Assembly: GCF_900099825.1 (NCBI RefSeq)
Contig: NZ_LT629693.1
Location: 7,079,001 to 7,143,000, forward strand
Source of the DNA: Bradyrhizobium ottawaense
Lineage (GTDB): Bacteria; Pseudomonadota; Alphaproteobacteria; Rhizobiales; Xanthobacteraceae
Direction: 5' to 3'
Length of the DNA: 64,000 nucleotides
Shown: positions 48,248 through 61,617 of the stretch, piece by piece
How positions within the stretch are numbered: position 1 is the stretch's first letter
How the letters are laid out: each line of letters starts with the position of its first letter
Translations under genes and position numbers: made by a program
Notes under the pieces: model-generated
What the model was told of the DNA's origin: nothing
The model's input: only the letters and a program-made list of their open reading frames with translations
The model's database searches: none

Positions 48248-48270
48248 TTTGGAAGGCAAGAACCGGAGTG
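48248..48270 (+). promoter_or_regulatory. Ada-box-like element 1 (for 48381)
   Basis: TTTGGAAGGCAAGAAC then CGGAGTG. It carries the shared 23-bp pattern: left half like ATTTGAAAGCAAG and CGGAG at fixed spacing. 110 bp before the 48381 start. Confidence 0.75.
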
Positions 48271-48380
48271 CGACGAGCCACGATTTCAGACCAAGTCGCT
48301 TCGCCCGCAGCGGCTCTTCTGGTCTGACGCCATCCGGCGCAGCCAAGGTGCCAGGCTGATGATGCCGGAGAACAGGAGAG

Positions 48381-49016
48381 ATGGCGCCCAACCGATCCGA
48401 AGATTTCCCATCGTTGCTGTTCGTGCACAACGACCATGAATTCATCATCACCGCGGTGCCCGATGGTGCCGACGTCTTGCTCCACATCGCCGATCAATAT
48501 GGCCGGATGCTGTTACCTGTTTCGACGAGAGTGCCGGGCACAAATGCGTGGCCAAGTGGCCGCCCGAACCATCGACTCATCGGTGTCGCAATGGCTGAAC
48601 TGCGGAGATCGGTCGAGCGCCTCGCCGGTGAGAAATTCCTGAATTTCCTGGAGACGCCGCGAGCGGCGAGCGACTTTCGATGGACCTCGGCCGAACTGGA
48701 AGCAGCAAAAACAATTGACTGGTCGAAACCCGCTGCGACGCTTGTTCACCAAGGATATTATTTCCTCATCGGCGCCTTCGTCACGCCGGAGCGGATGGTG
48801 ATTCTGCTGAGAGATCCGGATGGGCCTTTCGATGCGCCGATGTCCATTCCGAAGGAGTCGATGATGCGCTCGGAAGCGAAGGGCGGGGATCCGCTCGACT
48901 TCGGCGTCAATATCATGGTCGACCGAATCCGCGGTTGGAATGCGCCGCGTACCGAAGCGTTCGTCAGGGACACGCCTCGGCTCGTCGTGGACACGCCTTT
49001 CCACCGGCAAAATTGA
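48381..49016 (+). CDS. Uncharacterised protein, 211 residues (Ada-box controlled)
   Basis: AGGAGAG just before ATG 48381. No signal peptide, no membrane segment. Two similar-looking halves: FVHNDHEFIITAVPDGADVL near the start and LVHQGYYFLIGAFVTPERMV in the middle, each followed by a strand-rich segment, may be a duplicated alpha/beta fold, but I do not recognise a family. First gene of the alkylation island on its left side, with the Ada-box-like element 110 bp upstream. Confidence 0.65.
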   Translation: MAPNRSEDFPSLLFVHNDHEFIITAVPDGADVLLHIADQYGRMLLPVSTRVPGTNAWPSGRPNHRLIGVAMAELRRSVERLAGEKFLNFLETPRAASDFRWTSAELEAAKTIDWSKPAATLVHQGYYFLIGAFVTPERMVILLRDPDGPFDAPMSIPKESMMRSEAKGGDPLDFGVNIMVDRIRGWNAPRTEAFVRDTPRLVVDTPFHRQN

Positions 49017-49061
49017 TTCTACGTCAAGCGGACTGTTCTGAACCGATCGCCGATACTGCGA

Positions 49062-49436
49062 TCAATGCCTTCGAGGGCGTTGACCGAAGCCTGACAGGTG
49101 GGCCTCACCGAGTTCGTAGGACAATTCCTCGGTGAGAGAGAAGGATACGTTGAACCCCTCCGGCGTGCCGATCGTTAGGATGCGGAGGTTGTCCGGCCCT
49201 TCCTCGATCTGAAACTCTTCCGCCGGATAGGTGATGCGCGTCCGCGGGTCGCCGTGCGCCCGTTTCACGGCCGACGACGCTATCGTCGGCATCGTCATCA
49301 ACAGCGATGACAGCGTGTCGATGTTCATTATGGTGCCCACGGTCTGACCGGCGGAATCCTTGATGATCAATCTGACCGCCGTACCGTCGGCCGCCGTCTC
49401 GAAATTGATCAATCTGTCGATCTGAATGTCGGTCAT
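49062..49436 (-). CDS. Uncharacterised protein, 124 residues, paralogue of 50465
   Basis: Small soluble protein clearly related to the product of 50465: both have 'FETA-DGTAV-L', 'IxTLxxLLxTxPxxAS', 'GDPRTRI-YP' and 'ILT-GT-EGF-(V/I)SFSL-E-LS'. The conserved GDPRTRI segment is the best landmark. It is the last gene of a four-gene minus-strand operon (50173 to 49062) headed by Ada-box-like element at 50227. Unknown function, probably a small alpha/beta dimer. Confidence 0.7.
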   Translation of the reverse strand: MTDIQIDRLINFETAADGTAVRLIIKDSAGQTVGTIMNIDTLSSLLMTMPTIASSAVKRAHGDPRTRITYPAEEFQIEEGPDNLRILTIGTPEGFNVSFSLTEELSYELGEAHLSGFGQRPRRH

Positions 49437-49456
49437 TGTGACGTCTTCTCTTTAAG

Positions 49457-49618
49457 CTACGGGGCGCCGTTCCGGCCATTGGCGCCAGCGTCGCCTGGCG
49501 CACTTGTGCGACCGATCTGCATTACGGCCTCGCAGCCTGCGCGCGCCCGGCCGATCTCGGCGCTGCGGATGTCAGTTTCGACCGCGCACCTCCCACAGTT
49601 CAGCGCGACCGCCGACAT
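49457..49618 (-). CDS. Small Cys-containing protein, 53 residues
   Basis: ATG 49618 lies 7 bp after the stop of the CX3C lipoprotein gene and its stop lies 20 bp before the 49062-49436 gene, so spacing fits an operon member. LNCGRCAVETDIRSAEIGRA has a CxxC pair and a third Cys follows (AGCEAV). The tail is Gly/Ala-rich. Could be a short redox or metal-binding peptide; translation is not certain. Confidence 0.45.
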   Translation of the reverse strand: MSAVALNCGRCAVETDIRSAEIGRARAGCEAVMQIGRTSAPGDAGANGRNGAP

Positions 49619-49625
49619 GGGCGTT

Positions 49626-49859
49626 TCACTTCGCGCTCGCACAAGCGGCCTTGCAGGCGGATGCTGTCGCATTGCATTGCGCCACGCAGGCGCCGGACAA
49701 TCCGCAGTTCTGTGAACATGAGAAATTCGCGGAATCGCAGTTCGTCACGCATTCCTTCGGAGCCTGAGCCTGCGCCAGGTTGAAGCGCGTCGCCCCATTC
49801 CCGGCATGGCAAGCAGTGACCGTCAAGAAGATCGTGCAGATGAGAGCGACGTACTTCAT
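49626..49859 (-). CDS. Small Cys-rich lipoprotein with four CX3C motifs
   Basis: 77 residues. The leader KYVALICTIFLTVTAC ends in a lipobox-like Cys at about 17. The mature part has CVTNC, CSQNC, CVAQC and CKAAC, spaced by 6, 5 and 6 residues, as two twin-CX3C helical hairpins. Twin CX3C helices normally make disulfide-linked hairpins. It sits in an operon behind an Ada-box-like element, so a thiol-rich envelope protein would be made when Ada is methylated. Metal binding or trapping of electrophiles are possible roles (inference). Confidence 0.68.
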   Translation of the reverse strand: MKYVALICTIFLTVTACHAGNGATRFNLAQAQAPKECVTNCDSANFSCSQNCGLSGACVAQCNATASACKAACASAK

Positions 49860-49945
49860 CGAGCTTTTCCATGGCTAAACGCACGTTCGAGTACCCAGAG
49901 TGGCGCGAAACTTTATTCGGAACCGACTTGTGCTGCTGGTCTTTC

Positions 49946-50173
49946 CTATTTTTCATCGTCGCTCGCCGGCAGCGGTCCGCGCTGCGGCAACGCCGCGTTT
50001 CGCGCGTGCTCGAACCCCTTGGGATGGGGGCCGGACTGAATCATGCCGTCAATTCGCGTCACCGTATCGCATTGCGGTGCGGATGCCGTTCCCTCGCACA
50101 GCGCGAGCAGCTTGGGATGTAGTCCGTCACCGCGCGCAGCGGCGATCTCGAGCAGATCGAGGAATGACGTCAT
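49946..50173 (-). CDS. Small uncharacterised protein, 75 residues
   Basis: ATG 50173, GGAG about 13 bases upstream. MTSFLDLLEIAAARGDGLHP and KLLALCEGTASAPQCDTVTRI look like a helix followed by a short Cys-bridged loop (LCEG…PQCD). First gene of the minus-strand set ending at 49062; an Ada-box-like element lies 54 bp upstream. Function unknown. Confidence 0.55.
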   Translation of the reverse strand: MTSFLDLLEIAAARGDGLHPKLLALCEGTASAPQCDTVTRIDGMIQSGPHPKGFEHARNAALPQRGPLPASDDEK

Positions 50174-50226
50174 GTTCCGATGTCTCCAATGCGGGCCACG
50201 ATTCTCGGCGCGGCGTTCGCGGACCG

Positions 50227-50249
50227 CACTCCGATTCGTGACGTCGAAC
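50227..50249 (-). promoter_or_regulatory. Ada-box-like element 2 (for the 50173-49062 operon)
   Basis: On the minus strand GTTCGACGTCACGAAT then CGGAGTG. Left half is the weak form (TTCGAC), right half perfect. 54 bp before the 50173 start. Confidence 0.65.
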
Positions 50250-50311: not shown

Positions 50312-50334
50312 ATTTGAAAGCAAGAAACGGAGCG
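50312..50334 (+). promoter_or_regulatory. Ada-box-like element 3 (for 50465)
   Basis: ATTTGAAAGCAAGAAA then CGGAGCG, one of the closest matches to consensus, with GATTTGAAAGCAA close to the E. coli AAT-N6-GCAA form. About 130 bp before the 50465 start; TGTATTCTG about 28 bases after CGGAG could be the -10. Confidence 0.75.
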
Positions 50335-50464: not shown

Positions 50465-50824
50465 ATGCGAGGAAATGTGGAGGTTCGCAGGTTGGTGGGC
50501 TTCGAAACCGCCAACGACGGGACAGCCGTCAAGTTGTTCGCCGAGGACGTCGCCGGCCGCGAGATGGCCATCAACATGAAGATCGAGACGTTGACCGCGT
50601 TGCTCGTCACGTTACCGAAGATGGCGTCCAAGGTCATCAAGCGATGGCAGGGCGATCCCAGAACGCGGATAGCCTATCCGCTGACCGACTTCCGCATGGA
50701 GCTGAGCCAGGACGGCCGCCGAATCCTCACGTTCGGGACGCAGGAAGGCTTCACGATCTCGTTCAGCCTTGGCGAACAGTTGTCGGAAAAAATGGGCCAC
50801 GCCCATCTGAAGAGTGACGGCTAG
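50465..50824 (+). CDS. Uncharacterised protein, 119 residues, paralogue of 49062
   Basis: ATG 50465 chosen because it begins where similarity with the 49062 product begins (RGNVEVRRLVGFETANDG against TDIQIDRLINFETAADG). Conserved blocks: IETLTALLVTLPKMASK, GDPRTRIAYP, RILTFGTQEGFTISFSLGEQ. Soluble, no known family. The two copies lie 1 kb apart on opposite strands, each behind its own Ada-box-like element, so both were kept under the same control after duplication. Confidence 0.7.
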   Translation: MRGNVEVRRLVGFETANDGTAVKLFAEDVAGREMAINMKIETLTALLVTLPKMASKVIKRWQGDPRTRIAYPLTDFRMELSQDGRRILTFGTQEGFTISFSLGEQLSEKMGHAHLKSDG

Positions 50825-50862
50825 GGAGCGAAAACCGACCAGCCGGCGATCGCTTTCCCGTC

Positions 50863-51318
50863 TTAGGATTTGGTAGTCTTGTAGGCATCGAGCGCAACGA
50901 CCCGATCATCGACGGCGGGCGATGCGACGGAGAACTGGTGGGCCATTGCCTCGCGACCCGTAGGATCGAGCCTAGTTCTGTTCGAGACCGTGATGTCGAT
51001 CGCAACGATGGCATTCGGGTCTTCCGCCGGATCCGCGATCCGGGCCTCATCGGCGCTACGGATGACCAGCCGCTCACCCTTAGGATCGGCTAGAGCCAGC
51101 AGACTGAGGCGCCGAAGCCCGACGCGCGCCAACGGCCAGTGTTCGATCAGAGCGGACCACTTTCCGTTGTCCTTCAAGATGCCGTTAAGAACGCCTTGGG
51201 AAATCGGATCGTCGGGAGCCAGGGCTCCGAGGCTGCCGATCACGTCCAACACATGTGGTCCGGACGGCAGCTCGACCATCAGACCCGTCTTGCCCCCATC
51301 GAATCGCACCAGCTTCAT
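50863..51318 (-). CDS. FAH-N-terminal-domain-like protein, 151 residues
   Basis: KLVRFDGGKTGLMVELPSGP followed by HVLDVIGSLG resembles the N-terminal domain that precedes fumarylacetoacetate hydrolase folds, and the order continues to KWSALIEHWP. The catalytic FAH domain is absent, so the protein is only the accessory half. An Ada-box-like element lies 57 bp upstream. Unknown role. Confidence 0.6.
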   Translation of the reverse strand: MKLVRFDGGKTGLMVELPSGPHVLDVIGSLGALAPDDPISQGVLNGILKDNGKWSALIEHWPLARVGLRRLSLLALADPKGERLVIRSADEARIADPAEDPNAIVAIDITVSNRTRLDPTGREAMAHQFSVASPAVDDRVVALDAYKTTKS

Positions 51319-51374: not shown

Positions 51375-51397
51375 AACTTCGGTTCTTATCTTCAAAC
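51375..51397 (-). promoter_or_regulatory. Ada-box-like element 4 (for 51318)
   Basis: On the minus strand GTTTGAAGATAAGAAC then CGAAGTT; the only copy with CGAAG instead of CGGAG. It is divergent from element 5, 34 bp away. Confidence 0.6.
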
Positions 51398-51431: not shown

Positions 51432-51454
51432 GTTTGAGGACATCAAACGGAGTG
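51432..51454 (+). promoter_or_regulatory. Ada-box-like element 5 (for methyltransferase 51549)
   Basis: GTTTGAGGACATCAAA then CGGAGTG. TCTAG begins 24 bases after the first base of CGGAG, a -10-like position shared with elements 7 and 12. Confidence 0.7.
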
Positions 51455-51548: not shown

Positions 51549-52130
51549 ATGGACAGCCGGATCGGTCTCGAAGCGAGCTCGAGCTACGAAAACGAATATT
51601 TCCAGTTCATTTCGATGAAGGGAAAGCTCGGCATGGTTCTCGCCGCTGTCAGTCCGCGCGGCCTCTCGGCGTTGCTGCTCGGTGACGATCGAGAAGAGCT
51701 CGAGCGGGATCTTCGGCGCGAGTTCCCCGATGAGCAGCCGGTCAGCGGCGGTTACGGGCTTGAAGGCATCGGTTCGAGCATCGTCAGCTTTACCGAAGAT
51801 CCCCGCATCGGCGTTAGTCTGCCGCTGGACATGAGGGGCACGGCCTTTCAGAAGCGCGTCTGGGAAGAACTTCGATCCATCCCTCCCGGCGAACAGCGCA
51901 CCTATTCCGAAGTCGCGGGGCGGATAGGCATACCCGGCGATTCGTTCGCCATCGCTCAGACGTGCCTCGCCAATCGAATTGCGATTGCAATTCCATGTCA
52001 TCGGGTCATCGCGGACGACGGCGAAATCGGCGTCTACCGGTGGGGGCGCGAGCGCAAGCGCGCCCTTCTACGCGCCGAGGCCAACGCGCAGTTCGGCTCG
52101 AAATGCCCTCACTACGCGTTTCGGGACTGA
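51549..52130 (+). CDS. Methylated-DNA--protein-cysteine methyltransferase, Ada C-half paralogue (1)
   Basis: 193 residues. Same two-part layout as the C-terminal half of Ada: an RNase-H-like start (LGMVLAAVSPRGLSALLLGDD) and the methyltransferase core (PLDMRGTAFQKRVWEELRSI, then the acceptor site IPCHRVIADDG with Cys about 150). The arginine finger that flips the base is replaced: the helix reads PGDSFAIAQTCLANR where Ada has RAIASACAANK, so Arg is Phe. The acceptor Cys and hinge Asn are kept. Probably still accepts methyl groups, possibly with other preference. ATG 51549 is 95 bp after element 5. Confidence 0.88.
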   Translation: MDSRIGLEASSSYENEYFQFISMKGKLGMVLAAVSPRGLSALLLGDDREELERDLRREFPDEQPVSGGYGLEGIGSSIVSFTEDPRIGVSLPLDMRGTAFQKRVWEELRSIPPGEQRTYSEVAGRIGIPGDSFAIAQTCLANRIAIAIPCHRVIADDGEIGVYRWGRERKRALLRAEANAQFGSKCPHYAFRD

Positions 52131-52175: not shown

Positions 52176-52607
52176 CTAGTTGACGCGCGAAGCTGGAAAC
52201 GACGGCAGCTCGATCGACGTTCCGTCAGGATCGGTCAGGAAGAGTGGCGGCGAGCCGGACGACGGCGCTGGCGGACCTTCGAACACGAAACATACCCGCT
52301 GCGGATCGGGCAGCTTTATGGGTCGTCCGGAGGCGAGCAACATCACTCCGATCCCATTTCGACCCATCACGACGACCTGGCTGTCCGATCTTGCGACGGC
52401 ATTCCAATTCTCTTCGACGGCAAGGCCGATATTCCTGTGGTACCAATGAATGGATTTCTCCATGTCGGATACGAACACCACCACGTTGGGTGTCGTTGGA
52501 GCAGCCGTCATGCACGGACCCAATTCGGCCTCGACACTTTGGACCGATAGGCACCCGAGCACGACGATCACAGCGCCCCAGATAGGCCGCAACGCACGTC
52601 GGCTCAT
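52176..52607 (-). CDS. Exported glyoxalase/bleomycin-resistance-fold (VOC) protein
   Basis: 143 residues with a signal peptide (AVIVVLGCLSVQSVEA) and a single VOC half-barrel: TPNVVVFVSDMEKSIHWYHR near the start and PPLFLTDPDGTSIELPSFPA at the end, where DPDG and the terminal Glu fit the usual metal-site layout. Secretion is unusual for the family. An Ada-box-like element lies 59 bp upstream. Possible role in binding or detoxifying electrophiles outside the cytoplasm (inference). Confidence 0.75.
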   Translation of the reverse strand: MSRRALRPIWGAVIVVLGCLSVQSVEAELGPCMTAAPTTPNVVVFVSDMEKSIHWYHRNIGLAVEENWNAVARSDSQVVVMGRNGIGVMLLASGRPIKLPDPQRVCFVFEGPPAPSSGSPPLFLTDPDGTSIELPSFPASRVN

Positions 52608-52665: not shown

Positions 52666-52688
52666 CACTCCGTTTTTTGCCTTTGAAT
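52666..52688 (-). promoter_or_regulatory. Ada-box-like element 6 (for the VOC gene)
   Basis: On the minus strand ATTCAAAGGCAAAAAA then CGGAGTG, 59 bp before the VOC start. Confidence 0.7.
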
Positions 52689-52715: not shown

Positions 52716-53303
52716 TCACCATCCGGGATAGAGCAGCAGCCGCCCCCAACTCGCGAGCGCGCCTCGTCGACGCATTTCCTCGATCGCGTCGGCCGCATGC
52801 CACGTGCATGGAACGCGGCGAAGCCAGCAGTTGTCCTTCTTCCCCCGATAGAGCCAGATTATCGAAGCCGCGAGCATCTGCTGGGCCGGCGTCATCGCGC
52901 GGTAGTCGGCTCGCCAGCGTTCCATGCCGGTCGGATCGACCGCGTCGGCGTAGTAGTCGTACCCGCGAGGGCGAATGGTGTGATGATGTCTTCCGGGGCC
53001 ATCGCTTGCGAACAGCGGCGCAAGCGCAAACCGCTCTATCGAAGCGCGAAGATGATCGTAGAACGGTGCCAGGCCGAAGAAGTTGGGCCTCCACGGCATC
53101 GCGTCCGTAAAGTCCGCGAAAACCGCAGCTTCCGCGTCGGTCATATCGAGCCGGGCTAGAACCAGTTGCGTCAGCCGATAGTCGGGGAATCGCTCCTTGG
53201 CGCGAGCGCTATCGAACGCGGAAAGTGCGAGCAGTGGCAGAACGATGCGATCGTTCGGTCGGTTGAAATTGTCCAGCTCCATCGAGCTCGGCTTGTCGCA
53301 CAT
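52716..53303 (-). CDS. Uncharacterised protein, 195 residues
   Basis: Soluble, helical and Arg/Trp-rich (RRRGALASWGRLLLYPGW at the C-terminus, SIIWLYRGKKDNCWLRRVPC before it). No signal peptide. I do not recognise a family. ATG 53303 is 67 bp after an Ada-box-like element, so it looks like its own regulated unit rather than operon filler. The VOC gene's element begins 27 bp beyond its stop. Confidence 0.62.
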   Translation of the reverse strand: MCDKPSSMELDNFNRPNDRIVLPLLALSAFDSARAKERFPDYRLTQLVLARLDMTDAEAAVFADFTDAMPWRPNFFGLAPFYDHLRASIERFALAPLFASDGPGRHHHTIRPRGYDYYADAVDPTGMERWRADYRAMTPAQQMLAASIIWLYRGKKDNCWLRRVPCTWHAADAIEEMRRRGALASWGRLLLYPGW

Positions 53304-53369: not shown

Positions 53370-53392
53370 CACTCCGATTTCTGCCGTCGAAT
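53370..53392 (-). promoter_or_regulatory. Ada-box-like element 7 (for 53303)
   Basis: On the minus strand ATTCGACGGCAGAAAT then CGGAGTG; TCTAG starts 25 bases after the first base of CGGAG, as in element 5. Confidence 0.7.
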
Positions 53393-53407: not shown

Positions 53408-53659
53408 TCAGGCGAGGCGCGTCATCGTGGTGTCGGCCATAAGAAAGACTTCGCCGGTAACGAACCGCAGCTCGAGGTCGCCGTCATCGCGCGCGTGCCA
53501 TTCCGCGTATCCGTCGTTCACGAACTGGCTCAAGTACATCATGACCAGCGATTTCGCCGGATCGTCGCTGAAGCGCGCCACGACATCATCCACGCTCGCC
53601 AGGGTGCCGCAGGCCTCATTTCGCCCTATCTTGCCGTTGACCCCGCCGATACGGAACAT
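53408..53659 (-). CDS. Small uncharacterised protein, 83 residues
   Basis: Soluble and acidic, with a helix (VDDVVARFSDDPAKSLVMMY) and a strand pair (DLELRFVTGEVFLMADTTM). No family recognised. The Ada-box-like element at 53784, which overlaps the end of alkB, lies 125 bp upstream. Its stop is close to element 7 of the next gene, so each of these small genes has its own promoter. Confidence 0.6.
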   Translation of the reverse strand: MFRIGGVNGKIGRNEACGTLASVDDVVARFSDDPAKSLVMMYLSQFVNDGYAEWHARDDGDLELRFVTGEVFLMADTTMTRLA

Positions 53660-53783: not shown

Positions 53784-53806
53784 CACTCCGGATATCATCT
53801 TCAAAT
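53784..53806 (-). promoter_or_regulatory. Ada-box-like element 8 (for 53659), overlapping alkB end
   Basis: On the minus strand ATTTGAAGATGATATC then CGGAGTG. The TGA of the alkB frame (53801-53803) lies inside it, so coding and control sequence share bases. Confidence 0.7.
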
Positions 53807-54474
53807 TCCTGAAGTCGCAACCGGATTATAAAGCTTGCGGAAGGTTAGATTGATGCGCATTCGGCCCAAGGTCGGATGCAAGCTCTCCTTCAGTTCCACT
53901 ACGCCATGGTAGCAAAGACGCGCGGGCCCGCCCCACACCGCGACGTCGCCATGGCGCAGTGCATACCTTCGGACGGGATCTTTTCGCCTCAGGCCACCGA
54001 ACTGGAACGTCGCTGGAAGCCGAGGGAAACGGATACGATCGGTCTTTCGAAGTCCCTCTCGTTCTTGTCCTGGTGCAACGACAGGCGGGCGCCCGGTTCG
54101 TATCGGTTGATCAAACAGGCGTCGGGCATAAAGCCACGGTAGCCCGCGGCTTCCGCCGCTGCGGTGGCCAGCCTACGGAAGCTTTCGGGCATGGGCGGCC
54201 ACCGCTCGCCGCTTTCGGGATCCAGAGCGTCGTAACGATATCCGCTGCGGTCGGTGACCCAACCGGCCGCGCCGCAGTTGGTCATCGCAACTGACATCAC
54301 GAACCCGCCGGGCGTCACCATATGCCGAAACGGCGAGCGGGCCGTGATGGCATCGAGGCCGATCAGAACGTTGCGTTCGAAAGCAAGGGCGGCGCCGCGC
54401 AACAGATACGCTCCCTCGGCGATGGTTGCCTGCGGCCGCTCTGAAGGGTCTATGGCATCGAACGGGTCATTCAT
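53801..54474 (-). pseudogene. alkB: AlkB 2-oxoglutarate/Fe(II) DNA dioxygenase, frameshifted
   Basis: The first 160 codons encode AlkB up to VSVSLG, including the iron ligands in LHQDKNE (HxD). Then the frame shifts; the rest is in the next frame: PATFQFGGLRRKDPVRRYAL, the distal His in CYHGVV, and RMRINLTFRKLYN with the two Arg that bind 2-oxoglutarate. One missing C (minus strand) near 54018 explains it. As written, the product ends at 53989 without distal His or Arg and would be inactive. A single-base sequence error is possible. ATG is 6 bp after the alkA stop (operon ada-alkA-alkB). Confidence 0.88.
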
Positions 54475-54480: not shown

Positions 54481-55230
54481 TCATCGACGCTTTGGTCCGA
54501 CTTGCTTCGATTCTGCCGGCCGTTTCGAATCCGCGTCTCGATCGCGTGGGATGCGCCAGAGATACCAGGCCGCAACGGTGCGGTGCGGCGCCCACTCCTT
54601 GCCGATTTCGCGGAGCTTGTTGGGTTTCGGAAGTTCGGCCAGGTTCTTGAGTTTGCGGTAGCCGTCGCGTACGCCGAAATCGTCGACAGGCAGGATGTCC
54701 ATGCGCTCCAGCGAGTACATGAGCAGCATTTCGACGGTCCACCTCCCGATTCCCTTGATCTTCGTGATGCGCTCGACGAGCTCCTCGTCCTCCATTCCGA
54801 CGGCGTCGCCTCGCGTCGGCACCAGTCCCGACAGCGCGCCGTGGGCGATCGCCTTGATCGTGGCGATCTTGGCCGCCGAGAAGCCGCAGGCGCGCAGCGC
54901 GTCGAAGTCGCTACGGAGGATGTTCTCCGGGGTCGGGAACGCGACGTCCGGATGCAGCGCCTTGAGCCGACCGATCATCGCGTCGCCCGCTTTGGCGGTG
55001 AGTTGCTGATATCCGATCGCCCGGACCAGCGCCTCATAGGGTTCGCGCGCGGCCTTGGGATCGTGGCGACACGGGCCGACCCGGGCGACCAGGTCGGCCC
55101 AGTCGGGATCGATCTTCCGGAGAAAGGCGACCGATTTGCTGTAGCGCGCGAAGGTGGCCATTGGTGCAGGGACGAGTGCTTTCGGGCGGTAGATAGTATT
55201 CTCGCCGATTTCGACGAGGTAGCGGGCCAT
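54481..55230 (-). CDS. alkA: DNA-3-methyladenine glycosylase II
   Basis: 249 residues, HhH-GPD superfamily. The hairpin-helix-hairpin (ITKIKGIGRWTVEMLLMYSL) and the catalytic Asp in ILPVDDFGVRDGYRKL are clear. Upstream helices (ALVRAIGYQQLTAKAGDAMI) match AlkA/MAG. It excises alkylated purines. It starts 8 bp after the ada stop and is followed by alkB, the same group as the E. coli adaptive response but in one operon here. Confidence 0.93.
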   Translation of the reverse strand: MARYLVEIGENTIYRPKALVPAPMATFARYSKSVAFLRKIDPDWADLVARVGPCRHDPKAAREPYEALVRAIGYQQLTAKAGDAMIGRLKALHPDVAFPTPENILRSDFDALRACGFSAAKIATIKAIAHGALSGLVPTRGDAVGMEDEELVERITKIKGIGRWTVEMLLMYSLERMDILPVDDFGVRDGYRKLKNLAELPKPNKLREIGKEWAPHRTVAAWYLWRIPRDRDADSKRPAESKQVGPKRR

Positions 55231-55238: not shown

Positions 55239-56333
55239 TCAGCCCGCTGCGGCCGCGGTCTTGCGGGATTCTCGATCAAGCAGGACGCGCTTCCGCTCGA
55301 CCCCCCAAGCGTATCCGGAGAGCGAGCCGTCGTCCCTTACGACCCGATGGCAGGGAATCGCCACGGCAAGCTTGTTGGCCGCGCATGCGCTGGCGATGGC
55401 ACGGGCCGCTTTGGGTGCCCCGATCCGCCTGGCGACTTCCGCATAGGACACGGTCTGGCCAACGGGAATCTCCTGCAATGCCTGCCACACACGCTGCTGA
55501 AAGGCCGTTCCCCGGATATCCAAAGGAAGGCCGAGCCCGATCGCCGGCGCTTCGATGAAACCCACGACGCGCGCCACCAGCGCCTCATAGTTGGGATCGG
55601 CGCCGGCCAGCTCAGCCTTCGGGAAGCGATCTTGGAGATCGTGAACGAGTTTGTTCGGATCGTCGCCCAACAGGATGGCAGCGACGCCTTTTTCGCTCGA
55701 GGCGACCAGGATCGAGCCGAGCGACGTCTCGCCGACCGCGAAGCGAATTCTCTCGTTGACGCCACCCTCGCGATAACGGCTCGGCGTCATTCCCAGCATG
55801 TCGGTCGACTTGGCGTAGAAGCGGCCACTCGAATTGAAGCCGGCGTCGTACATGGCCCCGGTCACGCTGCTTCCCGTCTCAAGACACTGACGCACTTTTG
55901 CGGCCTGATGCGCCGCCGCGTAGTCCTTCGGCGTTAGTCCGGTGACGGCCTTGAAAACGCGGTGGAAATAGCTGGAGCTTCGCCCGACCTTGCCCGCAAG
56001 CTCGTCGAGCGAGGGTGGCTCCTCGTTCTCCTCGATGAGACGGCAGGCCTTGGCGACGAGCTTCGCGTTTTCGTCGTCGAGCGAAAGTCCGTCGGGATGG
56101 CACCGCTTGCATGAACGGAAGCCAGTGGCCTTGGCCGACGCCAGCGTGTCGTGTAGCGCGACGTTCTTGGGATTTGCGGTGCGAGAGGGGCACGACGGGC
56201 GGCAATAGACCCCCGTCGTCGTCACGGAATACCAGAATTGACCGTCGGCGGTCTTGTCTCGCGCCAAGACGCGCGCCCAGCGCGGGTCGTCGGCAACGCC
56301 AATCAATTTCAATTTGCTTTTGTCTGCGGTCAT
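55239..56333 (-). CDS. ada: Ada: methylation-activated regulator and DNA methyltransferase
   Basis: 364 residues, full length for Ada. The zinc domain has the four Cys (GVYCRPSCPS at 44/48 and SCKRCHPDG at 75/78); Cys44 is the expected methylphosphotriester acceptor that switches Ada into an activator. An AraC-type HTH follows (LAGKVGRSSSYFHRVFKAVT). The C-terminal half has the RNase-H-like start (SLGSILVASSEKGVAAILLG), arginine finger in KAARAIASAC and O6-methylguanine acceptor Cys328 in IPCHRV. ATG 56333 is chosen by comparison with the family; upstream ATGs lengthen only the tail. An Ada-box-like element (56399) lies 65 bp upstream, so it controls itself and alkA-alkB. Confidence 0.94.
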   Translation of the reverse strand: MTADKSKLKLIGVADDPRWARVLARDKTADGQFWYSVTTTGVYCRPSCPSRTANPKNVALHDTLASAKATGFRSCKRCHPDGLSLDDENAKLVAKACRLIEENEEPPSLDELAGKVGRSSSYFHRVFKAVTGLTPKDYAAAHQAAKVRQCLETGSSVTGAMYDAGFNSSGRFYAKSTDMLGMTPSRYREGGVNERIRFAVGETSLGSILVASSEKGVAAILLGDDPNKLVHDLQDRFPKAELAGADPNYEALVARVVGFIEAPAIGLGLPLDIRGTAFQQRVWQALQEIPVGQTVSYAEVARRIGAPKAARAIASACAANKLAVAIPCHRVVRDDGSLSGYAWGVERKRVLLDRESRKTAAAAG

Positions 56334-56398: not shown

Positions 56399-56421
56399 CT
56401 CTCCGATCCTTGCTTTCAAAT
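56399..56421 (-). promoter_or_regulatory. Ada-box-like element 9 (for ada-alkA-alkB)
   Basis: On the minus strand ATTTGAAAGCAAGGAT then CGGAGAG. Nearly identical to elements 3 and 14 over the left half. Confidence 0.78.
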
Positions 56422-56562: not shown

Positions 56563-56585
56563 ATCTGGAAGCAGGAATCGGAGTG
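56563..56585 (+). promoter_or_regulatory. Ada-box-like element 10 (for chaC)
   Basis: ATCTGGAAGCAGGAAT then CGGAGTG, about 89 bp before the ChaC start. Confidence 0.68.
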
Positions 56586-56673: not shown

Positions 56674-57414
56674 ATGAAAGCGGCAACCGCGGACACGACC
56701 ACGGCGAATCGGAGATCGTTCGCATTCTCAACCGACGTCAAGCCTCCGGTAGTTACCCGGTCTCTGCTGCAGGTCGGCGGCATGGCGGAGATCTACCTGA
56801 GGGACGCGCCGTACCTGCGGCTTCTGAGCGAGGAAGAACGCGAAGCCTCCCTCGACGCGATGTTGAGGGCGAAGCCCGAAGGCAGCGTATGGATCTTCGG
56901 CTACGGTTCGTTGATCTGGAATCCGGCGGTCAAATTCGTCGAACGACGCCTCGCAAAGGTCGAGGGATGGCATCGCTCGTTCTGCATGTCGATCGTCGCG
57001 GGTCGAGCTTCCCCCGCCTCACCGGGATTGATGTTGGGCCTGGACGGCGGCGGGGAATGCCTTGGAAGTGCTTTCCGGCTCGACGACGCCGACGTCCGTT
57101 CGGAATTGAGCCTGCTTTGGCGACGAGAAATGTTGTGTCGCGGAGCTTATGTCCCAAGGTGGTTGGAGCTCCGTGATGAAGACGGGGTGGGCTTCGGCCA
57201 TGCCGTCGCCTTCACGATCGATCCGGAGGGCGAAAAGTACGCCGGCAACGTGCCCGCTGAGGTCGCGGTGCGACGCCTGGCCTCTGCGTCGGGCGGGTTG
57301 GGATCTTGTGCGGACTATCTCTTTCAGACGCGAGACGGACTGCGCGCCCACGGCATTCCCGATCTTGCCCTCGAACACCTTGCCAACCGCGTCGAGATCG
57401 CCCTCGCGGCGTAA
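56674..57414 (+). CDS. ChaC-like gamma-glutamylcyclotransferase
   Basis: 246 residues. The glutathione-binding signature FGYGSLIWNP is at about 74-83, LSLLWRREMLCRGAY carries the conserved acidic/aromatic region, and the C-terminal CADYLFQT / LEHLANRVEI matches ChaC. ChaC enzymes break glutathione into 5-oxoproline and Cys-Gly. Its presence behind an Ada-box-like element suggests that alkylation stress changes glutathione turnover here. Start 56674 is the first ATG; an ATG at 36 codons later is closer to where family similarity begins. Confidence 0.85.
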   Translation: MKAATADTTTANRRSFAFSTDVKPPVVTRSLLQVGGMAEIYLRDAPYLRLLSEEEREASLDAMLRAKPEGSVWIFGYGSLIWNPAVKFVERRLAKVEGWHRSFCMSIVAGRASPASPGLMLGLDGGGECLGSAFRLDDADVRSELSLLWRREMLCRGAYVPRWLELRDEDGVGFGHAVAFTIDPEGEKYAGNVPAEVAVRRLASASGGLGSCADYLFQTRDGLRAHGIPDLALEHLANRVEIALAA

Positions 57415-57537: not shown

Positions 57538-57560
57538 ATTTGAGAACAAGGACCGGAGTG
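57538..57560 (+). promoter_or_regulatory. Ada-box-like element 11 (for methyltransferase 57618)
   Basis: ATTTGAGAACAAGGAC then CGGAGTG. TCTAG begins 24 bases after the first base of CGGAG, the same as in element 5. Confidence 0.75.
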
Positions 57561-57617: not shown

Positions 57618-58166
57618 ATGAACTTCGCGACACGCCTCGCCGACGGGGAAACGGCCAACGCGGCCGACATGATCGAATACGGAATCGACGGTTGCGATCT
57701 CGGAAATGTGCTGGTCGCACGCAGCAAGATTGGTGTCTGCGCGATCTTGCTGGGGGCGAACCAGGACGAGATGGAGCGGAGCCTCGCTGCGATCTTTCCG
57801 ATGAGCCTATTGGTCCCGAACAAGCCTCACGTTCGTGACGAGTTGGCTAAGGCGGTGCAGTTCATCGCGTCGCCGAAGGACGATCTTGATCTCGAGCTCG
57901 ACGTGCGCGGGACACCTTTTCAGCATCGCGTCTGGGACGCATTGCGCACCGTGAAATCCGGCCGGCCGGTTACTTACGCGCAGCTTGCCTGTCGGGTACA
58001 CGGACCGAAGTCTTTGCGCGCTATCGCGCAAGCCTGCTCGGAGAACCCAATCGCCCTCGCAATACCGTGCCATCGTGTCATGGGAAACAGCGGATCTACC
58101 TCTGGCTATCGCTGGGGCGTCGAGCGGAAGCGGGCGCTGGTGAATCGCGAAGTCGCCGCGGCGTAG
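57618..58166 (+). CDS. Methylated-DNA--protein-cysteine methyltransferase, Ada C-half paralogue (2)
   Basis: 182 residues. RNase-H-like start (LGNVLVARSKIGVCAILLGA), core ELDVRGTPFQHRVWDALRTV, arginine finger retained (PKSLRAIAQACSENP) and acceptor IPCHRVMGNSG with Cys about 151. Among the three stand-alone paralogues this is the only one with the canonical Arg. GGGAGAAG precedes ATG 57618; Ada-box-like element 11 is 57 bp upstream. Repairs O6-alkylguanine or O4-alkylthymine by irreversible transfer. Confidence 0.9.
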   Translation: MNFATRLADGETANAADMIEYGIDGCDLGNVLVARSKIGVCAILLGANQDEMERSLAAIFPMSLLVPNKPHVRDELAKAVQFIASPKDDLDLELDVRGTPFQHRVWDALRTVKSGRPVTYAQLACRVHGPKSLRAIAQACSENPIALAIPCHRVMGNSGSTSGYRWGVERKRALVNREVAAA

Positions 58167-58189: not shown

Positions 58190-58858
58190 CTAGTTTTTGA
58201 CGACCATGCACAGCCGATTCCAGCCGGTGAGCGCGGCTCCGATGCAGAGAGCGAGCGAGGCCGGCCAGGTCGGGTTTGGTAAAAACCCCAGGAAGGCGGC
58301 GGCGCCGCCGATCGAAAGCACGAACGAGCGATCGGCCTTACCCAAGGGACCTTCAACGCGGCGCCGGTCGCCGAACGCGAGGCCGGCCAGGCCGGCGAAT
58401 TCGCTCAGCACAACGAGCGCGATCACGATCGAGCCTTTTGCGACGGTGCAAGACGAGATGAACATCAATGGAAGAAATAAAGCGATCTCGGAAAGGATGT
58501 CGCCAGTCTCGTTCAGCACGCCACCCAAGCGGCTCTTTTGTCCGAACTCGACCGCCAACGTGCCGTCGAGCGAGGCGCAGGCGGTCCGGACGAGGACCCA
58601 CGTCGGAAGAATCCCGAAAAGCGCGGGCCTGTCGGGAAACGCACAGAGGACGGAGCCGACCGCGATCGATCCGGCCAACGACGCCAACGTCACTTGATTC
58701 GCTGTGACCCCGGTCCGCGCCAGCAGCGCCGCGACAGGATACAGCAGTCTTTTCAGCCTGGGTTTGAGGAAAGTCAGCGTCGTTCCCGTCAGAAACGTAG
58801 GTAGTTCGCGATCTCGGCGCCCGCGACGAGAATCGTCGTTGCCGCAGGATTGTCCCAT
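58190..58858 (-). CDS. CDP-alcohol phosphatidyltransferase-family membrane protein
   Basis: 222 residues with about five or six transmembrane segments. The family signature is at about 95-125: ACASLDGTLAVEFGQKSR then GGVLNETGD. Canonical DxxDGxxAR(x8)GxxxDxxxD is altered: first Asp is Ala, Arg is Val, third Asp is Asn; second and fourth Asp remain. An 'LNE..D' form is usual in YnjF-like relatives, but loss of AR is additional, so activity is uncertain. It starts 8 bp after the cytidylyltransferase gene. The pair would make and transfer a CDP-linked polar group. Confidence 0.82.
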   Translation of the reverse strand: MGQSCGNDDSRRGRRDRELPTFLTGTTLTFLKPRLKRLLYPVAALLARTGVTANQVTLASLAGSIAVGSVLCAFPDRPALFGILPTWVLVRTACASLDGTLAVEFGQKSRLGGVLNETGDILSEIALFLPLMFISSCTVAKGSIVIALVVLSEFAGLAGLAFGDRRRVEGPLGKADRSFVLSIGGAAAFLGFLPNPTWPASLALCIGAALTGWNRLCMVVKN

Positions 58859-58866: not shown

Positions 58867-59337
58867 TCAGGCGGCGATCGCGGCTTCGAGCGCCGCGACG
58901 TTGCGGGTCCGGGTCGCGATAGCGTCGATATTCTGCAAAGTCCGGCGGAGAGCGCTGCTCGAGGTGGCTTGTGTGTAGTGAAAATAGATCACGTCGACAC
59001 CTACTCTGGCGAAATCGCGCTCCAGCCTGTTGCCGTTTTCAGTTCCACGCCAGTCGTCGCCCTTGAACAACAGGTTGAAACGCAATTCCTTCCAGATCTC
59101 TATCTTGTCGTTCGTCATCGCGGCGTGCGCCATGTTCACGTACCGGACATTGCGAACGATCTCGAGTCGCTCGAGCAGCGGTATCACGGGCGTCACGCCT
59201 TTGTGTCGGATCAGCACGTCGTCCGCGACCACGCCGGCGATGAGATAGTCGCAGTTCTCCTTCGCCTGCCGTAGAATATTCAGGTGCCCGATATGGAAAA
59301 GATCGAAGGCGCCCGGCACGTACCCGATACGGATCAT
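58867..59337 (-). CDS. Glycerol-3-phosphate cytidylyltransferase-like protein
   Basis: 156 residues starting ATG 59337. The nucleotidyltransferase fold is complete: GAFDLFHIGHLNILRQAKEN with the HxGH motif at about 14-17, LIAGVVADD, and FKGDDWRGTE. The RTEGISTS loop of TagD-type enzymes is replaced by TQATSSSALRRTL. Probable reaction: CTP plus a polyol phosphate to a CDP-polyol. First gene of the two-gene operon; Ada-box-like element 12 lies 58 bp upstream. Unexpected in a DNA-repair regulon. Confidence 0.85.
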   Translation of the reverse strand: MIRIGYVPGAFDLFHIGHLNILRQAKENCDYLIAGVVADDVLIRHKGVTPVIPLLERLEIVRNVRYVNMAHAAMTNDKIEIWKELRFNLLFKGDDWRGTENGNRLERDFARVGVDVIYFHYTQATSSSALRRTLQNIDAIATRTRNVAALEAAIAA

Positions 59338-59395: not shown

Positions 59396-59418
59396 CGCTC
59401 CGCTTCCTGCTCCCCAAT
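59396..59418 (-). promoter_or_regulatory. Ada-box-like element 12 (for 59337-58190 operon)
   Basis: On the minus strand ATTGGGGAGCAGGAAG then CGGAGCG, divergent from element 13 (56 bp away). Weaker left half. Confidence 0.6.
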
Positions 59419-59474: not shown

Positions 59475-59497
59475 ATATGGGGGCAAGAAACGGAGTT
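59475..59497 (+). promoter_or_regulatory. Ada-box-like element 13 (for 59577)
   Basis: ATATGGGGGCAAGAAA then CGGAGTT, 80 bp before the SnoaL-like gene. Confidence 0.68.
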
Positions 59498-59576: not shown

Positions 59577-60026
59577 ATGAGCTTGCAAGATGACAACAAG
59601 GCGATCGTCGGTCAGTGGTTCGATCGATTCTGGGGAAAGACCTTCGATGCGAGCGTGATCGAGCAGATCGCAGCGCCGGACATGCTGCTGAAGTATTCTC
59701 TGCACGAACCTCGCCGAGGGCGGGCGGATATCAAGAACTTCATCACCGATTTCCGCGCCGCATTCCCCGACCTGAACTTCTGGGGTACGGCCGATCTTCT
59801 CGCCGAGGGCGACTACGTCATCGGACAATGGGAAGGCGGCGGCACCCACACCGGACCGGCGTTCAAGGATTTCCTGGCTGGCAGCCTGTCTGCCAACACG
59901 GGCAAGACGATGCGCTTCACCGGCGTGACCATTCTCAAGCTGAAGGATGGCAAGATCGTCGAGGAAATCGGCCTCGATGACGGCGTCGCGTGTTTGACCC
60001 AGCTCGGCATCCTGAAGGCTGCCTAA
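59577..60026 (+). CDS. SnoaL/NTF2-like protein
   Basis: 149 residues. ATG 59577 begins SLQDDNKAIVGQWFDRFWGK, the usual N-terminal helix of SnoaL-like ester-cyclase/NTF2 folds; the sheet follows (VIGQWEGGGTHTGPAFKDF, TMRFTGVTILKLKDGKIVEE). Substrate unknown. It has its own Ada-box-like element and ends at a strong terminator. A cone-shaped pocket protein could bind a hydrophobic small molecule or damaged product (inference). Confidence 0.78.
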   Translation: MSLQDDNKAIVGQWFDRFWGKTFDASVIEQIAAPDMLLKYSLHEPRRGRADIKNFITDFRAAFPDLNFWGTADLLAEGDYVIGQWEGGGTHTGPAFKDFLAGSLSANTGKTMRFTGVTILKLKDGKIVEEIGLDDGVACLTQLGILKAA

Positions 60027-60034
60027 CTGCGTGA

Positions 60035-60064
60035 GGCCGTCGTTCGAAAGAACGGCGGCCTTTT
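60035..60064 (+). terminator. Rho-independent terminator
   Basis: GGCCGTCGTTC and GAACGGCGGCC pair over 11 bp (one G-T) around a GAAA tetraloop, followed by TTTT. It is 9 bp after the SnoaL-like gene stop. Confidence 0.9.
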
Positions 60065-60082
60065 GGCAAGCGTACGCTTGCC
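60065..60082. repeat. Perfect 18-bp palindrome
   Basis: GGCAAGCGTACGCTTGCC, directly abutting the T-run of the terminator. It could be an extra RNA hairpin or a protein site upstream of element 14; no second copy was noticed. Confidence 0.5.
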
Positions 60083-60232
60083 GACGATGAAATTCCGACC
60101 GAAATAGCTCGCCCCCTCGGATCCTGGTCGTTCGCTTCGGCGCCCGCGTCGCGCGCCTGGAGGTGAGATCGCGCTCAGCGTCGCGAAGCGACGGATATCC
60201 GGAGTGACCGTCGGGGCCATCGCAAAAAGCCA

Positions 60233-60255
60233 ATTTGAAAGCAAGGCACGGAGTG
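60233..60255 (+). promoter_or_regulatory. Ada-box-like element 14 (for 60308-61617)
   Basis: ATTTGAAAGCAAGGCA then CGGAGTG. With the preceding base it contains an exact AAT-N6-GCAA (60232-60244), as in the E. coli Ada box. 53 bp before the methyltransferase start. Confidence 0.8.
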
Positions 60256-60307
60256 GGGACGGGAGCAAAAGGGCAGATGCTCCGGATTGATACGGAGGAA
60301 TACTGTC

Positions 60308-60841
60308 ATGAATACGCCGGCCCCCAACACGACCGAGCCCGAGATCCTTCTTTTCGGCTATGGAGAAACCGAGCTCGGGCAGATCGTCGTGGCCGAAACC
60401 AGGCGCGGCGTTGCGGCGCTGTTCCTCGGCGAGGATCGAGCCAAGCTGTTCCGCGACCTGGAGCAGGCGTTTCCGTGCACGCGGCTCGTTCTCGATCAGG
60501 CCGCCCTTGAGACTACGATCAGCCGTGCCATCTCGATGATCGATACGCCGCGCGCCGCAGTCGAGTTGCCGCTCGATCTGCGTGGATCGCCCATCGAAAT
60601 GGCGGTCTGGAAGGCGTTGATGTCCATCCCGATCGGGGAAACACGGACATATGGCCAAATCGCAAAGAATTTGCCGATCGCGGCGACGGCTCAAGAGGTC
60701 GGTGCGGCTTGCGCCGCAAATCGCATTGCCGTCGCCGTGCCGTGCCACCGCGTCGTGAAGGCCGACGGATCGGTTGCCGGTTATCGTTGGGGCGTGAAGC
60801 GCAAGCTTCGATTGATCAATAGAGAGGGTATCGACCTATGA
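60308..60841 (+). CDS. Methylated-DNA--protein-cysteine methyltransferase, Ada C-half paralogue (3)
   Basis: 177 residues. LGQIVVAETRRGVAALFLGE start, core PLDLRGSPIEMAVWKALMSI, acceptor VPCHRVVKADG with Cys about 146. The arginine-finger helix reads AATAQEVGAACAANR, so Arg is Gln. The invariant Asn hinge is kept. GGAGG upstream of ATG 60308. It overlaps the next oxygenase gene by 4 bp (ATGA): direct coupling of a methyltransferase and a dioxygenase. Confidence 0.88.
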   Translation: MNTPAPNTTEPEILLFGYGETELGQIVVAETRRGVAALFLGEDRAKLFRDLEQAFPCTRLVLDQAALETTISRAISMIDTPRAAVELPLDLRGSPIEMAVWKALMSIPIGETRTYGQIAKNLPIAATAQEVGAACAANRIAVAVPCHRVVKADGSVAGYRWGVKRKLRLINREGIDL

Positions 60842-61617
60842 CCGCGAATGTGAGCCAAATGAAAAACGGGACTGAGAAGACCACCAAGGGAAACGGAGCC
60901 ACGGTGACGGCGGCGATTCAGGCGCGCGTGGAGCGCGTCGACTGGGAACGGATCTACGCCGATCTCGACGCCCAAGGTTGGGCCATCGCGCCGAAGCTTC
61001 TGACCCACGCGGAAGCCGATGCGGTCGTCGGCCTCTACCATCGGGGTGACGGCTTCCGGAGCCACGTCATCATGGGCCGGCACGGTTTCGGTCGCGGTGA
61101 GTACAAATACTTCAGCTATCCGCTGCCGCCGATCATCCAGGCGCTGCGGGCGGCGGCCTATCCCCATCTGGTGCCGGTCGCAAACAAATGGCACGAGCGC
61201 ATGAGCAAGGACGTGCGGTTCCCCGCGAATCATGCCGCATTCCTCGATCGCTGCCACAAGGCGGGCCAGGTCCGTCCTACGCCCCTTCTGCTGGAGTACG
61301 CGCCTGAAGACTACAACTGTCTTCACCGTGATCTGTATGGCGAGCACGTCTTTCCGATTCAGATCGCGATTCTGCTGGACCAGCCGGGCGAGGACTTTGA
61401 AGGGGGCGAGTTCGTCATGACCGAGCAACGCCCTCGGATGCAAACGCGCGCAATGGTCTTGCCCCTCAAGAAGGGGGACGCTGCCATCTTTGCCGTGAAC
61501 AGTCGACCGATGAAGGGTGTTCGTGGCGACTACCAGGTGAAGCTCAATCACGGCGTCAGCAAACTCTACTCGGGGAAACGCCATACGGTCGGCGTGATCT
61601 TCCACGACGCGACCTGA
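60838..61617 (+). CDS. 2-oxoglutarate/Fe(II) oxygenase of the DNA-damage type (PF09859-like)
   Basis: 259 residues. The iron site is CLHRDLYG (His163, Asp165) and a distal His follows (LNHGVSKLYSGKRHTVGVIF, with Arg for 2-oxoglutarate). QGWAIAPKLLTHAEADAVVG and NKWHERMSKDVRFP fit the family annotated as oxygenases acting on damaged DNA, distinct from AlkB itself. It is the second gene of the unit behind element 14. If the alkB frameshift is real, this could be the remaining oxidative demethylase in the region. Confidence 0.82.
   Translation: MTANVSQMKNGTEKTTKGNGATVTAAIQARVERVDWERIYADLDAQGWAIAPKLLTHAEADAVVGLYHRGDGFRSHVIMGRHGFGRGEYKYFSYPLPPIIQALRAAAYPHLVPVANKWHERMSKDVRFPANHAAFLDRCHKAGQVRPTPLLLEYAPEDYNCLHRDLYGEHVFPIQIAILLDQPGEDFEGGEFVMTEQRPRMQTRAMVLPLKKGDAAIFAVNSRPMKGVRGDYQVKLNHGVSKLYSGKRHTVGVIFHDAT

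Follow-up and report, generated by a model that had tools for sequence, protein, structure and literature searches.

A 13-kb island of DNA-repair and other genes in Bradyrhizobium ottawaense, predicted to be one Ada regulon with a tripartite operator

The window, by which we mean the whole stretch of 64,000 nucleotides of Bradyrhizobium ottawaense DNA that we analyzed, contains at 48248-61617 a block of about 13 kb with 20 genes, some of which are known DNA-repair genes and others not. Fourteen copies of one element lie in this island, on both strands, each ahead of a gene or operon. Judging from sequence comparisons, we are confident that the genes of the island form a single regulon under the Ada encoded there, and the element very probably serves as its operator. 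As read from its conserved positions, this operator unites the A- and B-boxes of the E. coli type with the X-box (CGG) of Cada2-type regulators, to which an Arg in the second HTH of Ada corresponds. The block and its elements point to a response to DNA-methylating chemicals that is far larger than the textbook one and can be transferred.

The island encodes one four-Cys Ada, AlkA, AlkB, three stand-alone methyltransferase halves, a PF09859 oxygenase, and 13 further genes, as follows:

48381..49016, + strand: 211-aa protein (g01); ORF, no Pfam or NCBIfam match
49062..49436, - strand: paralogue A, 124 aa; 105 homologues, all lacking Pfam domains
49626..49859, - strand: small Cys-rich protein, 77 aa (putative CX3C lipoprotein of the first-pass annotation); ORF
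49946..50173, - strand: 75-aa protein; relatives behind 8 elements at 7 other loci
50465..50824, + strand: paralogue B, 119 aa, start uncertain; 51% identity to paralogue A
50863..51318, - strand: 151-aa protein, weakly FAH-N-like; 248 homologues
51549..52130, + strand: MGMT1, stand-alone O6-methylguanine methyltransferase half 1, start uncertain; PF01035, E 2.6e-27
52176..52607, - strand: VOC/glyoxalase-family protein; PF00903, E 1.5e-6
52716..53303, - strand: 195-aa protein; no Pfam match, relatives in L081 and L092 (54% identity)
53408..53659, - strand: 83-aa protein; 21 homologues
53989..54474, - strand: AlkB-type dioxygenase; PF13532, E 9.6e-34
54481..55230, - strand: AlkA-type glycosylase; PF00730, E 2e-13
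55239..56333, - strand: Ada, regulator and repair protein; PF02805 (E 7.8e-29), PF12833, PF01035
56674..57414, + strand: ChaC family; PF04752, E 1.1e-31
57618..58166, + strand: MGMT2, stand-alone methyltransferase half 2; PF01035, E 2.3e-28
58190..58858, - strand: CDP-alcohol phosphatidyltransferase-like; below Pfam cut-off (17 vs 22 bits)
58867..59337, - strand: cytidylyltransferase; PF01467, E 3e-14
59577..60026, + strand: SnoaL-like protein; PF07366, E 2.3e-26
60308..60841, + strand: MGMT3, stand-alone methyltransferase half 3, start uncertain; PF01035, E 4.5e-28
60838..61617, + strand: Oxygenase-NA, overlapping MGMT3; PF09859, E 6.5e-84

All of the repair genes named in the first-pass annotation are borne out by Pfam: Ada (Zn-binding, HTH_18, and methyltransferase domains), the AlkA-type HhH-GPD, the AlkB-type 2OG-FeII_Oxy_2, the three stand-alone PF01035 proteins, and the second oxygenase, which is Oxygenase-NA, score above the cut-offs. 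The annotation had put the genes of other kinds at about twelve; we count 13, among which ChaC (presumably a gamma-glutamyl cyclotransferase), SnoaL, CTP_transf_like, and Glyoxalase/VOC are also above the cut-offs, and its two paralogous genes are indeed similar. The CDP-alcohol transferase label stands as a resemblance, to PIP and archaetidylinositol-phosphate synthases (E 2.3e-13 and 3.6e-14), both matches being below the NCBIfam cut-offs as well. For the FAH-N-like label, the best PDB match of the 151-aa protein is YisK, which we take to be a member of the FAH family, but at E 0.23 and with a low-confidence model (pLDDT 66); no match reached E<=0.001. The model of paralogue A had a mean pLDDT of 55 and was left out of the fold search. 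For eight of the 20 island proteins, Pfam gave nothing at E<=0.1.

The 14 copies reported by the first-pass annotation were also found on recounting, 12 of them with a matrix that contains no window sequence. We used two matrices, one from 13 window sites and a window-free one from ada-upstream regions; an initial iterated matrix, which had spread to 35 loose sites, was set aside. The predicted Ada operators are listed with their window-free scores:

48248..48269, + strand: operator 1, 20.7; before the 211-aa gene
50228..50249, - strand: operator 2, 11.8; before the 75-aa protein
50312..50333, + strand: operator 3, 32.6; -10 candidate TATTCT; before paralogue B
51376..51397, - strand: operator 4, 13.1; -10 candidate TATGGT, offset 42; before the 151-aa protein
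51432..51453, + strand: operator 5 (weak), 7.0, leave-one-out 23.2 with the window matrix; -10 candidate TAGCTT; before MGMT1
52667..52688, - strand: operator 6, 24.4; before VOC
53371..53392, - strand: operator 7, 17.4; before the 195-aa protein
53785..53806, - strand: operator 8 (weak), 6.8, leave-one-out 19.3; before the 83-aa protein
56400..56421, - strand: operator 9, 31.2; 67 bp before the ada start, ahead of ada-alkA-alkB
56563..56584, + strand: operator 10, 14.9; before ChaC
57538..57559, + strand: operator 11, 29.7; -10 candidate TAGCGT; before MGMT2
59397..59418, - strand: operator 12 (weak), 10.9; before cytidylyltransferase-CDP-alcohol transferase
59475..59496, + strand: operator 13, 18.7; before SnoaL
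60233..60254, + strand: operator 14, 33.6; before MGMT3-oxygenase

Twelve sites thus score 10.9-33.6, three of them just 10.9-13.1, and the remaining two (51432+ and 53785-) score 7.0 and 6.8. The single extra match in the window at 10 or above (57355-, 14.2) is antisense within ChaC and was taken as chance, and the best score in the window outside the island is 2.0. In 150 Markov copies of the window there were 39 chance matches at 10 or above (0.26 per window, the top one at 19.9), and 200 column-permuted matrices gave 0.135 matches per window, with a maximum of 3.

Equal frequency of the element across the genome, which the first-pass annotation had named as evidence against Ada control, is not what we found. 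In a pattern search of the 8.34-Mb genome, 10/10 sites with up to two mismatches fall within the island and a reversed-pattern control found none, some of this concentration being built in because the pattern was taken from the island's own copies. At up to three mismatches there are 26 sites (control 6), 13 in the island, including the antisense site, and 13 outside it; when the latter were rescored with the window-free matrix, two reached 10 (L017 at 14.5 and L019 at 11.1). The concentration in the genome and the Markov controls lead us to reject chance repeats.

The link between the element and Ada comes from other bacteria. Using the window's Ada as the query we fetched loci, the best 80 of 580, and from the regions upstream of ada in the 76 that are non-redundant, with the window sequence excluded, we obtained the motif ATTTGAAAGCAAGAACCGGAGT (29.5 bits), which is the same element as in the window. 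It scores at least 10 directly before ada in 65 of these best 80 loci. Among the 15 that score below 10 there, 10 have the element before a SnoaL gene ahead of ada, three have it further upstream (L100, L104, and L113), and two (L099 and L143) have no element upstream of ada. With the window-trained matrix at a threshold of 15, 78 of the same best 80 contain the element, 169 in total compared with 8 for the reversed matrix. Where a locus has a single element, it usually lies ahead of the four-Cys ada, and the element stays with its genes though gene order varies between islands. SnoaL-like genes have the element upstream in 32 loci and the 83-aa family has it immediately upstream in 10, both counting the window, and relatives of the 77-aa Cys-rich protein are preceded by it at L065 and L066; such counts of genes behind elements include one contig twice (L070 = L086).

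The left half of the element resembles the proven Ada boxes of E. coli in a similar register. In 8-kb stretches of E. coli the best matrix matches were the alkA promoter (10.4 bits) and, weakly, the ada promoter (1.4, the next being -0.3); aidB was not recovered. In the motif upstream of ada, CGGAGT carries 1.2-1.5 bits per position, so that the operator extends beyond an A-box and B-box alone. Over 216 distinct elements, near-identical sites having been removed, TAnnnT occurs at +43..+48 (T.56, A.86, T.61), and from this fixed distance to the -10 box we place the element in the -35 position. In the window, TAnnnT near +43 is seen in only 4 of the 14 sites, and there we took whichever of offsets 40-46 fitted best, with no control.

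The island Ada is the sole PF02805 match in the genome. The four Zn-binding columns, including the phosphotriester acceptor (C38 in E. coli), are Cys in 93-95 of 95 Ada sequences, and the acceptor Cys of the PCHR methyltransferase motif, C328, in all 95; this set leaves out 7 of the 100 loci L056-L155, which have no full-length Ada, and counts L070 = L086 twice. The R171 column in the second HTH is Arg in 94 of the 95, a number biased by the loci having been fetched with the window's Ada (best 80 of 580) and by the search peptide AMYDAGFN adjoining Arg171. We therefore also sampled across phyla with E. coli Ada, not the window's, as the query. Among the 26 of 60 promoters with a recognizable A+B half, CGG is in register in 17 of 19 with the Arg and in 0 of 7 without it, uncorrected for ancestry; the Arg-CGG link has exceptions in L188 and L197. 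Where that half is not recognizable (34/60), 25 have the Arg (8 with CGG) and 9 do not (3 with CGG). In family f34, 7 sequences have the Arg one residue earlier, and 6 have CGG in the best match.

On this reading, Cys44 of Ada, the equivalent of Cys38 in E. coli, would accept methyl groups from damaged DNA, and the methylated protein would bind the element and recruit RNA polymerase, the element standing in the -35 place about 20 bp before the -10 box. From that position we would expect the promoters to be silent when Ada is missing; methylation-dependent activation would follow by homology. Within the operator, the A-box-like ATT may be read by the Zn domain, the B-box GCAA by the first HTH, and the X-box CGG by the second HTH through Arg171, although its motif is GRFY rather than the RLHD of the Cada2 type. 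Ada control of the clustered genes, as the first-pass annotation proposed, is strongly supported computationally by an element that is conserved upstream of ada across phyla, has an E. coli-like left half, travels with its genes, and in the genus occurs together with this Ada. The proposal of some 20 controlled genes fits the 14 elements but needs qualifying, in that paralogue A and the putative CX3C gene have no element of their own in the window. Each transcription unit, including that of ada, has a predicted operator ahead of it, these two genes only if they are co-transcribed; paralogue A is perhaps transcribed from the element at 50228. Fourteen promoters could then serve all 20 genes, some singly and the rest through putative operons, namely ada-alkA-alkB, MGMT3-oxygenase, CTP-CDP-alcohol and, with less certainty, 75-aa/CX3C/paralogue A. 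It counts against this regulon that Brucella ada genes are reported to show no MMS induction (PMC6813329).

The elements could instead be bound by a Cada2-like regulator of the genus core, with HTH and methyltransferase but no Zn domain, that reads a B-box and an X-box. The genome does encode such a protein (G000:3856007-3856885, SRLHD), and Caulobacter Cada2 binds GCAA and CGG and controls a methyltransferase-half/2OG-oxygenase operon like MGMT3-oxygenase (PMC10957082). However, the Cada2-like gene is in all 26 genus genomes searched (in two pieces in G007), whereas element clusters occur only with the island Ada (14/117), apart from one two-site relic. GCAA-N3/4-CGG was not found upstream of the Cada2-like gene in any of 16 correctly framed loci (of 25), nor upstream of the window genome's own copy in a stricter-motif check, for which 2 of 25 loci, that copy's among them, were readable. 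No reader of the conserved A-half is known among proteins that lack the Zn domain, and single elements usually precede a four-Cys ada. We consider control by the core protein unlikely.

An alternative sigma factor promoter would likewise span the -35 region at a constant distance from the -10 box; yet the element, at 22-28 bp and 29.5 bits, is more than is usual for a -35, its left half is like an E. coli Ada box, the -10 is sigma70-like, and it precedes ada across phyla, which makes this reading very improbable. We give still less credence to a repair cluster without shared control whose promoters are similar by chance or descent from repeats. Some copies are degenerate, as that would predict, but all 10 genomic copies with up to two mismatches fall within 13 kb of an 8.34-Mb genome, and promoter geometry is fixed, the elements follow genes through rearrangement, and they are conserved before ada.

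The E. coli Ada regulon, with ada-alkB, alkA, and aidB, an A-box AAT, and a B-box GCAA, is the textbook four-gene system. Regulation by the island Ada would share with it a four-Cys Ada with both acceptor cysteines, AlkA, AlkB, and the register of the operator's left half. In contrast, the island has about 20 genes in one block, many of which do not figure in descriptions of the E. coli response, its operator has a further part, the CGG X-box, and occupies the -35 site, and its Ada has Arg171 where E. coli has Ser. No acyl-CoA dehydrogenase, which we take to be the AidB family, is among the Pfam matches of the island proteins. The predicted response is not simply that of E. coli, given the extra operator box, the location of the operator at -35, and the accessory nature of the block.

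The Caulobacter Cada2 regulon (Kamat et al. 2024, PMC10957082) also has a GCAA B-box with CGG and a methyltransferase-half/2OG-oxygenase operon, and the second-HTH Arg of the island Ada aligns with the Arg of RLHD. Cada2 lacks the Zn (A-box) domain that the island Ada has, its authors detected no A-box, its regulon has 6 genes, and its spacer is described as 3 bp, compared with 4 in the island operator when counted between GCAA and CGG. In Pseudomonas putida (PMC3788762), an ATT-N6-GCAA site similarly precedes alkA-ada and alkA is inducible; unlike the predicted island regulon, that one has few genes and alkB is not induced. The same paper reports that E. coli and P. putida Ada sites are not interchangeable, for which its authors blame spacing or small site differences; a tripartite operator might bear on this.

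Such an operator fits neither of the two types of regulation that the literature sets apart, the E. coli type (A+B) and the Cada2 type (B+X). In open-licence PMC literature we found neither an expanded Ada island nor a tripartite operator. We lean, with some caution, towards a third widespread class of adaptive response, in which a four-Cys Ada reads A+B+X with its Zn domain, HTH1, and HTH2. This class may be ancestral, E. coli Ada having lost the X-box contact and Cada2 the A-box domain, and in Bradyrhizobium and some relatives it would be packaged into transferable islands adding electrophile-detoxifying and other functions. With about 20 genes, 8 of them without a Pfam family and most with their own operator, candidate new alkylation-response functions can be listed from sequence alone.

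This Ada is present in 14 of 117 genus genomes, all 14 of which carry element clusters, and is therefore accessory; one of the other 103 has an element relic of two sites (the genus matches listed omit one single match, in G094). Two loci from two other species, L056 and L057, share 9.9 kb of the island at 98.1% in different flanks and with no other match of at least 250 bp, which points to horizontal transfer of the cassette, at least in these relatives. The non-repair genes VOC, ChaC, and SnoaL plausibly serve to clear electrophiles, as may the DJ-1, flavin reductase, and SDR that related islands also encode.

The genome is a single contig of 8.34 Mb, of which the window covers bases 7079001-7143000. 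All 20 genes that the first-pass annotation had placed between 48248 and 61617 were found there, as were its 14 copies of the repeated element, ahead of genes on both strands. Among the island proteins, Pfam backs Ada, AlkA, AlkB, Oxygenase-NA, ChaC, SnoaL, the cytidylyltransferase, the VOC protein and three methyltransferase halves, the CDP-alcohol transferase matches below threshold, and eight proteins belong to no Pfam family. The Ada zinc domain is present in a single copy in the whole genome, and four of its eight PF01035 matches are in the island.

To avoid circularity in identifying the element, we took 80 named loci encoding relatives of the island Ada (best 80 of 580), with Pseudomonadota, Myxococcota and Acidobacteria among their record titles, dropped near-identical ones to leave 76, and searched the regions upstream of ada for motifs with window sequence excluded. 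The motif was ATTTGAAAGCAAGAACCGGAGT (29.5 bits), and its window-free matrix scores at least 10 before ada in 65/80 loci. In 10 of the 15 lower-scoring loci, a SnoaL gene lies ahead of ada and the element stands in front of that gene; in 3 the element is further upstream, and in L099 and L143 none was found upstream of ada. In the window, 13 sites reach 10, namely 12 of the 14 elements and one at 57355, antisense in ChaC; the two remaining elements score 7.0 and 6.8, and there are no such sites in 1-48000. In E. coli K-12, the highest-scoring matches fall on the ada promoter in the ada stretch (ATTAAAGCGCAAG, 1.4 bits, runner-up -0.3) and on the alkA promoter in the alkA stretch (ATATGAAAGCAAAG, 10.4 bits); the aidB stretch gave nothing. 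Because the motif lies upstream of ada in other loci and has its best E. coli matches at the ada promoter (weakly) and the alkA promoter, we regard the element as very probably an extended Ada operator. The earlier observation and its main inference, that Ada controls the clustered genes, stand. The island would be a variant of the known Ada system, with binding and induction predicted.

With the pattern TTYGARNNCANRAAHCGGAGTG, derived from the island's own copies, all 10 genome matches at up to two mismatches are in the island, and the reversed pattern has none in the genome. Allowing three mismatches raises the count to 26, split evenly between the island (13) and the rest of the genome (13), with 6 for the control; when the outside sites are rescored with the window-free matrix, 2 of the 13 score 10 bits or more. 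A near-match, TTTGAAAGCAGAAATCGGGGGG, is conserved and recurrent in many genus genomes without the island, such as at loci L034 and L035.

We aligned 216 distinct elements scoring at least 15 bits from a scan of 95 sources (the window, 14 genus loci and the 80 named loci, best 80 of 580). Conservation runs from about -5 to +23 and resumes with TAnnnT, a -10 box that occupies +43 to +48; no TTGACA was seen in the alignment. Given this spacing, the element ends at the position of the -35 box, a geometry new here and that of an activator substituting for the -35. In the window, 4/14 promoters have TAnnnT near +43 to +48.

The operator would also be tripartite, with a counterpart in the protein, which is likewise new. 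Kamat et al. (2024; PMC10957082) split regulators into an E. coli type, with A-box, B-box and a zinc domain, and a Cada2 type, with B-box, X-box CGG, RLHD in a second HTH and no zinc domain; they report E. coli-like features for the EcAda-encoding organisms in their tabulation. In contrast to this split, the island Ada combines the zinc domain with an operator that carries ATT, GCAA and CGG. At the position of SSYY in the second HTH of E. coli Ada, the island protein shows GRFY, whose Arg aligns by eye with the Arg of SRLHD in the Cada2-like protein that this genome encodes:

G000:C1:3856007-3856885 (L159), Cada2-like regulator, genus-core

Arg occupies the Arg171 column in 94/95 aligned Adas, the exception being E. 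coli, in a set biased by being fetched with the island Ada (best 80 of 580). We also searched a phylum sample with E. coli Ada, which gave 60 promoters (59 of 299 genomes plus E. coli itself), 26 of them with a recognisable A+B half. Among those 26, CGG is in register in 17/19 with Arg vs 0/7 without, kinship ignored; the exceptions with Arg and no CGG are L188 and L197. In the 34 promoters lacking a recognisable A+B half, CGG occurs in 8/25 with Arg and 3/9 without, again ignoring kinship. Family f34 contributes seven TRALY/TRGAY sequences, in which the Arg sits one position earlier; for six of these, the best match contains CGG. The Ada proteins of L184, L186 and L187 have Ser or Asn in the Arg171 column, and upstream of ada the CGG is displaced by a single base (GCGGGT), which may reflect a contact with different spacing.

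The Cada2-like gene is present in 26/26 genus genomes searched (in two pieces in G007). Whereas the Caulobacter Cada2 protein is autoregulated, the genus gene has no recognisable B+X site upstream: GCAA-N3/4-CGG was found in 0/16 readable copies, and is absent before the window genome's own copy too.

Genes behind the elements were tabulated for 238 sites (threshold 12, plus the two weak window sites) in 94 of the 95 sources scanned, the named loci being the best 80 of 580. Gene starts were set by a simple rule, so some first-gene entries are likely false ORFs, and L070 and L086, being one contig, contribute twice to the tally, including to the marked rows. In the related islands L070 and L099, flavin reductase-like and DJ-1/PfpI proteins stand behind the element.

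First gene downstream of the element
Ada or methyltransferase: 117/238
SnoaL: 32/238
83-aa unknown: 10/238
75-aa unknown: 8/238
oxygenase: 8/238
151-aa protein: 7/238
flavin-reductase-like protein: 5/238 (L070 = L086 counted twice)
paralogues A/B: 4/238
cytidylyltransferase: 4/238
DJ-1/PfpI: 3/238 (L070 = L086 counted twice)
AlkA: 3/238
pairs or singletons: including TMEM175, SDR, EamA

We suggest that the non-repair genes may serve to remove electrophiles that alkylate, or to repair alkylated molecules of other kinds.

Island-type Ada occurs in 14/117 genus genomes, all 14 with element clusters, and one of the other 103 has a two-site relic (L072 in G043), perhaps a decayed island. Gene order and content vary between islands, and the elements stay with their genes. 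Because L056 and L057 have 9.9 kb in common at 98.1% identity, with no further match of at least 250 bp in their 20-kb stretches, we infer recent transfer in these relatives, also new here. The following features lie at the island edges:

47335-47919, minus strand, in region 46799-47919: MFS_3 transporter piece, left edge
61868-62683, plus strand: phage-type integrase (PF00589)
about 62741-62790, minus strand: putative 5' half of tRNA-Arg, read by eye, adjoining the integrase

The integrase and the tRNA-Arg half, where ARAGORN called no tRNA, suggest a tRNA-linked insertion at the right edge, and the MFS_3 transporter at the left may be broken. A further ORF in a different frame lies beside the MFS_3 piece (46799-47919, minus strand). 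At L072 and at L064 (in genome G096), two divergent elements lie between remnants of an unknown paralogue and the 75-aa gene.
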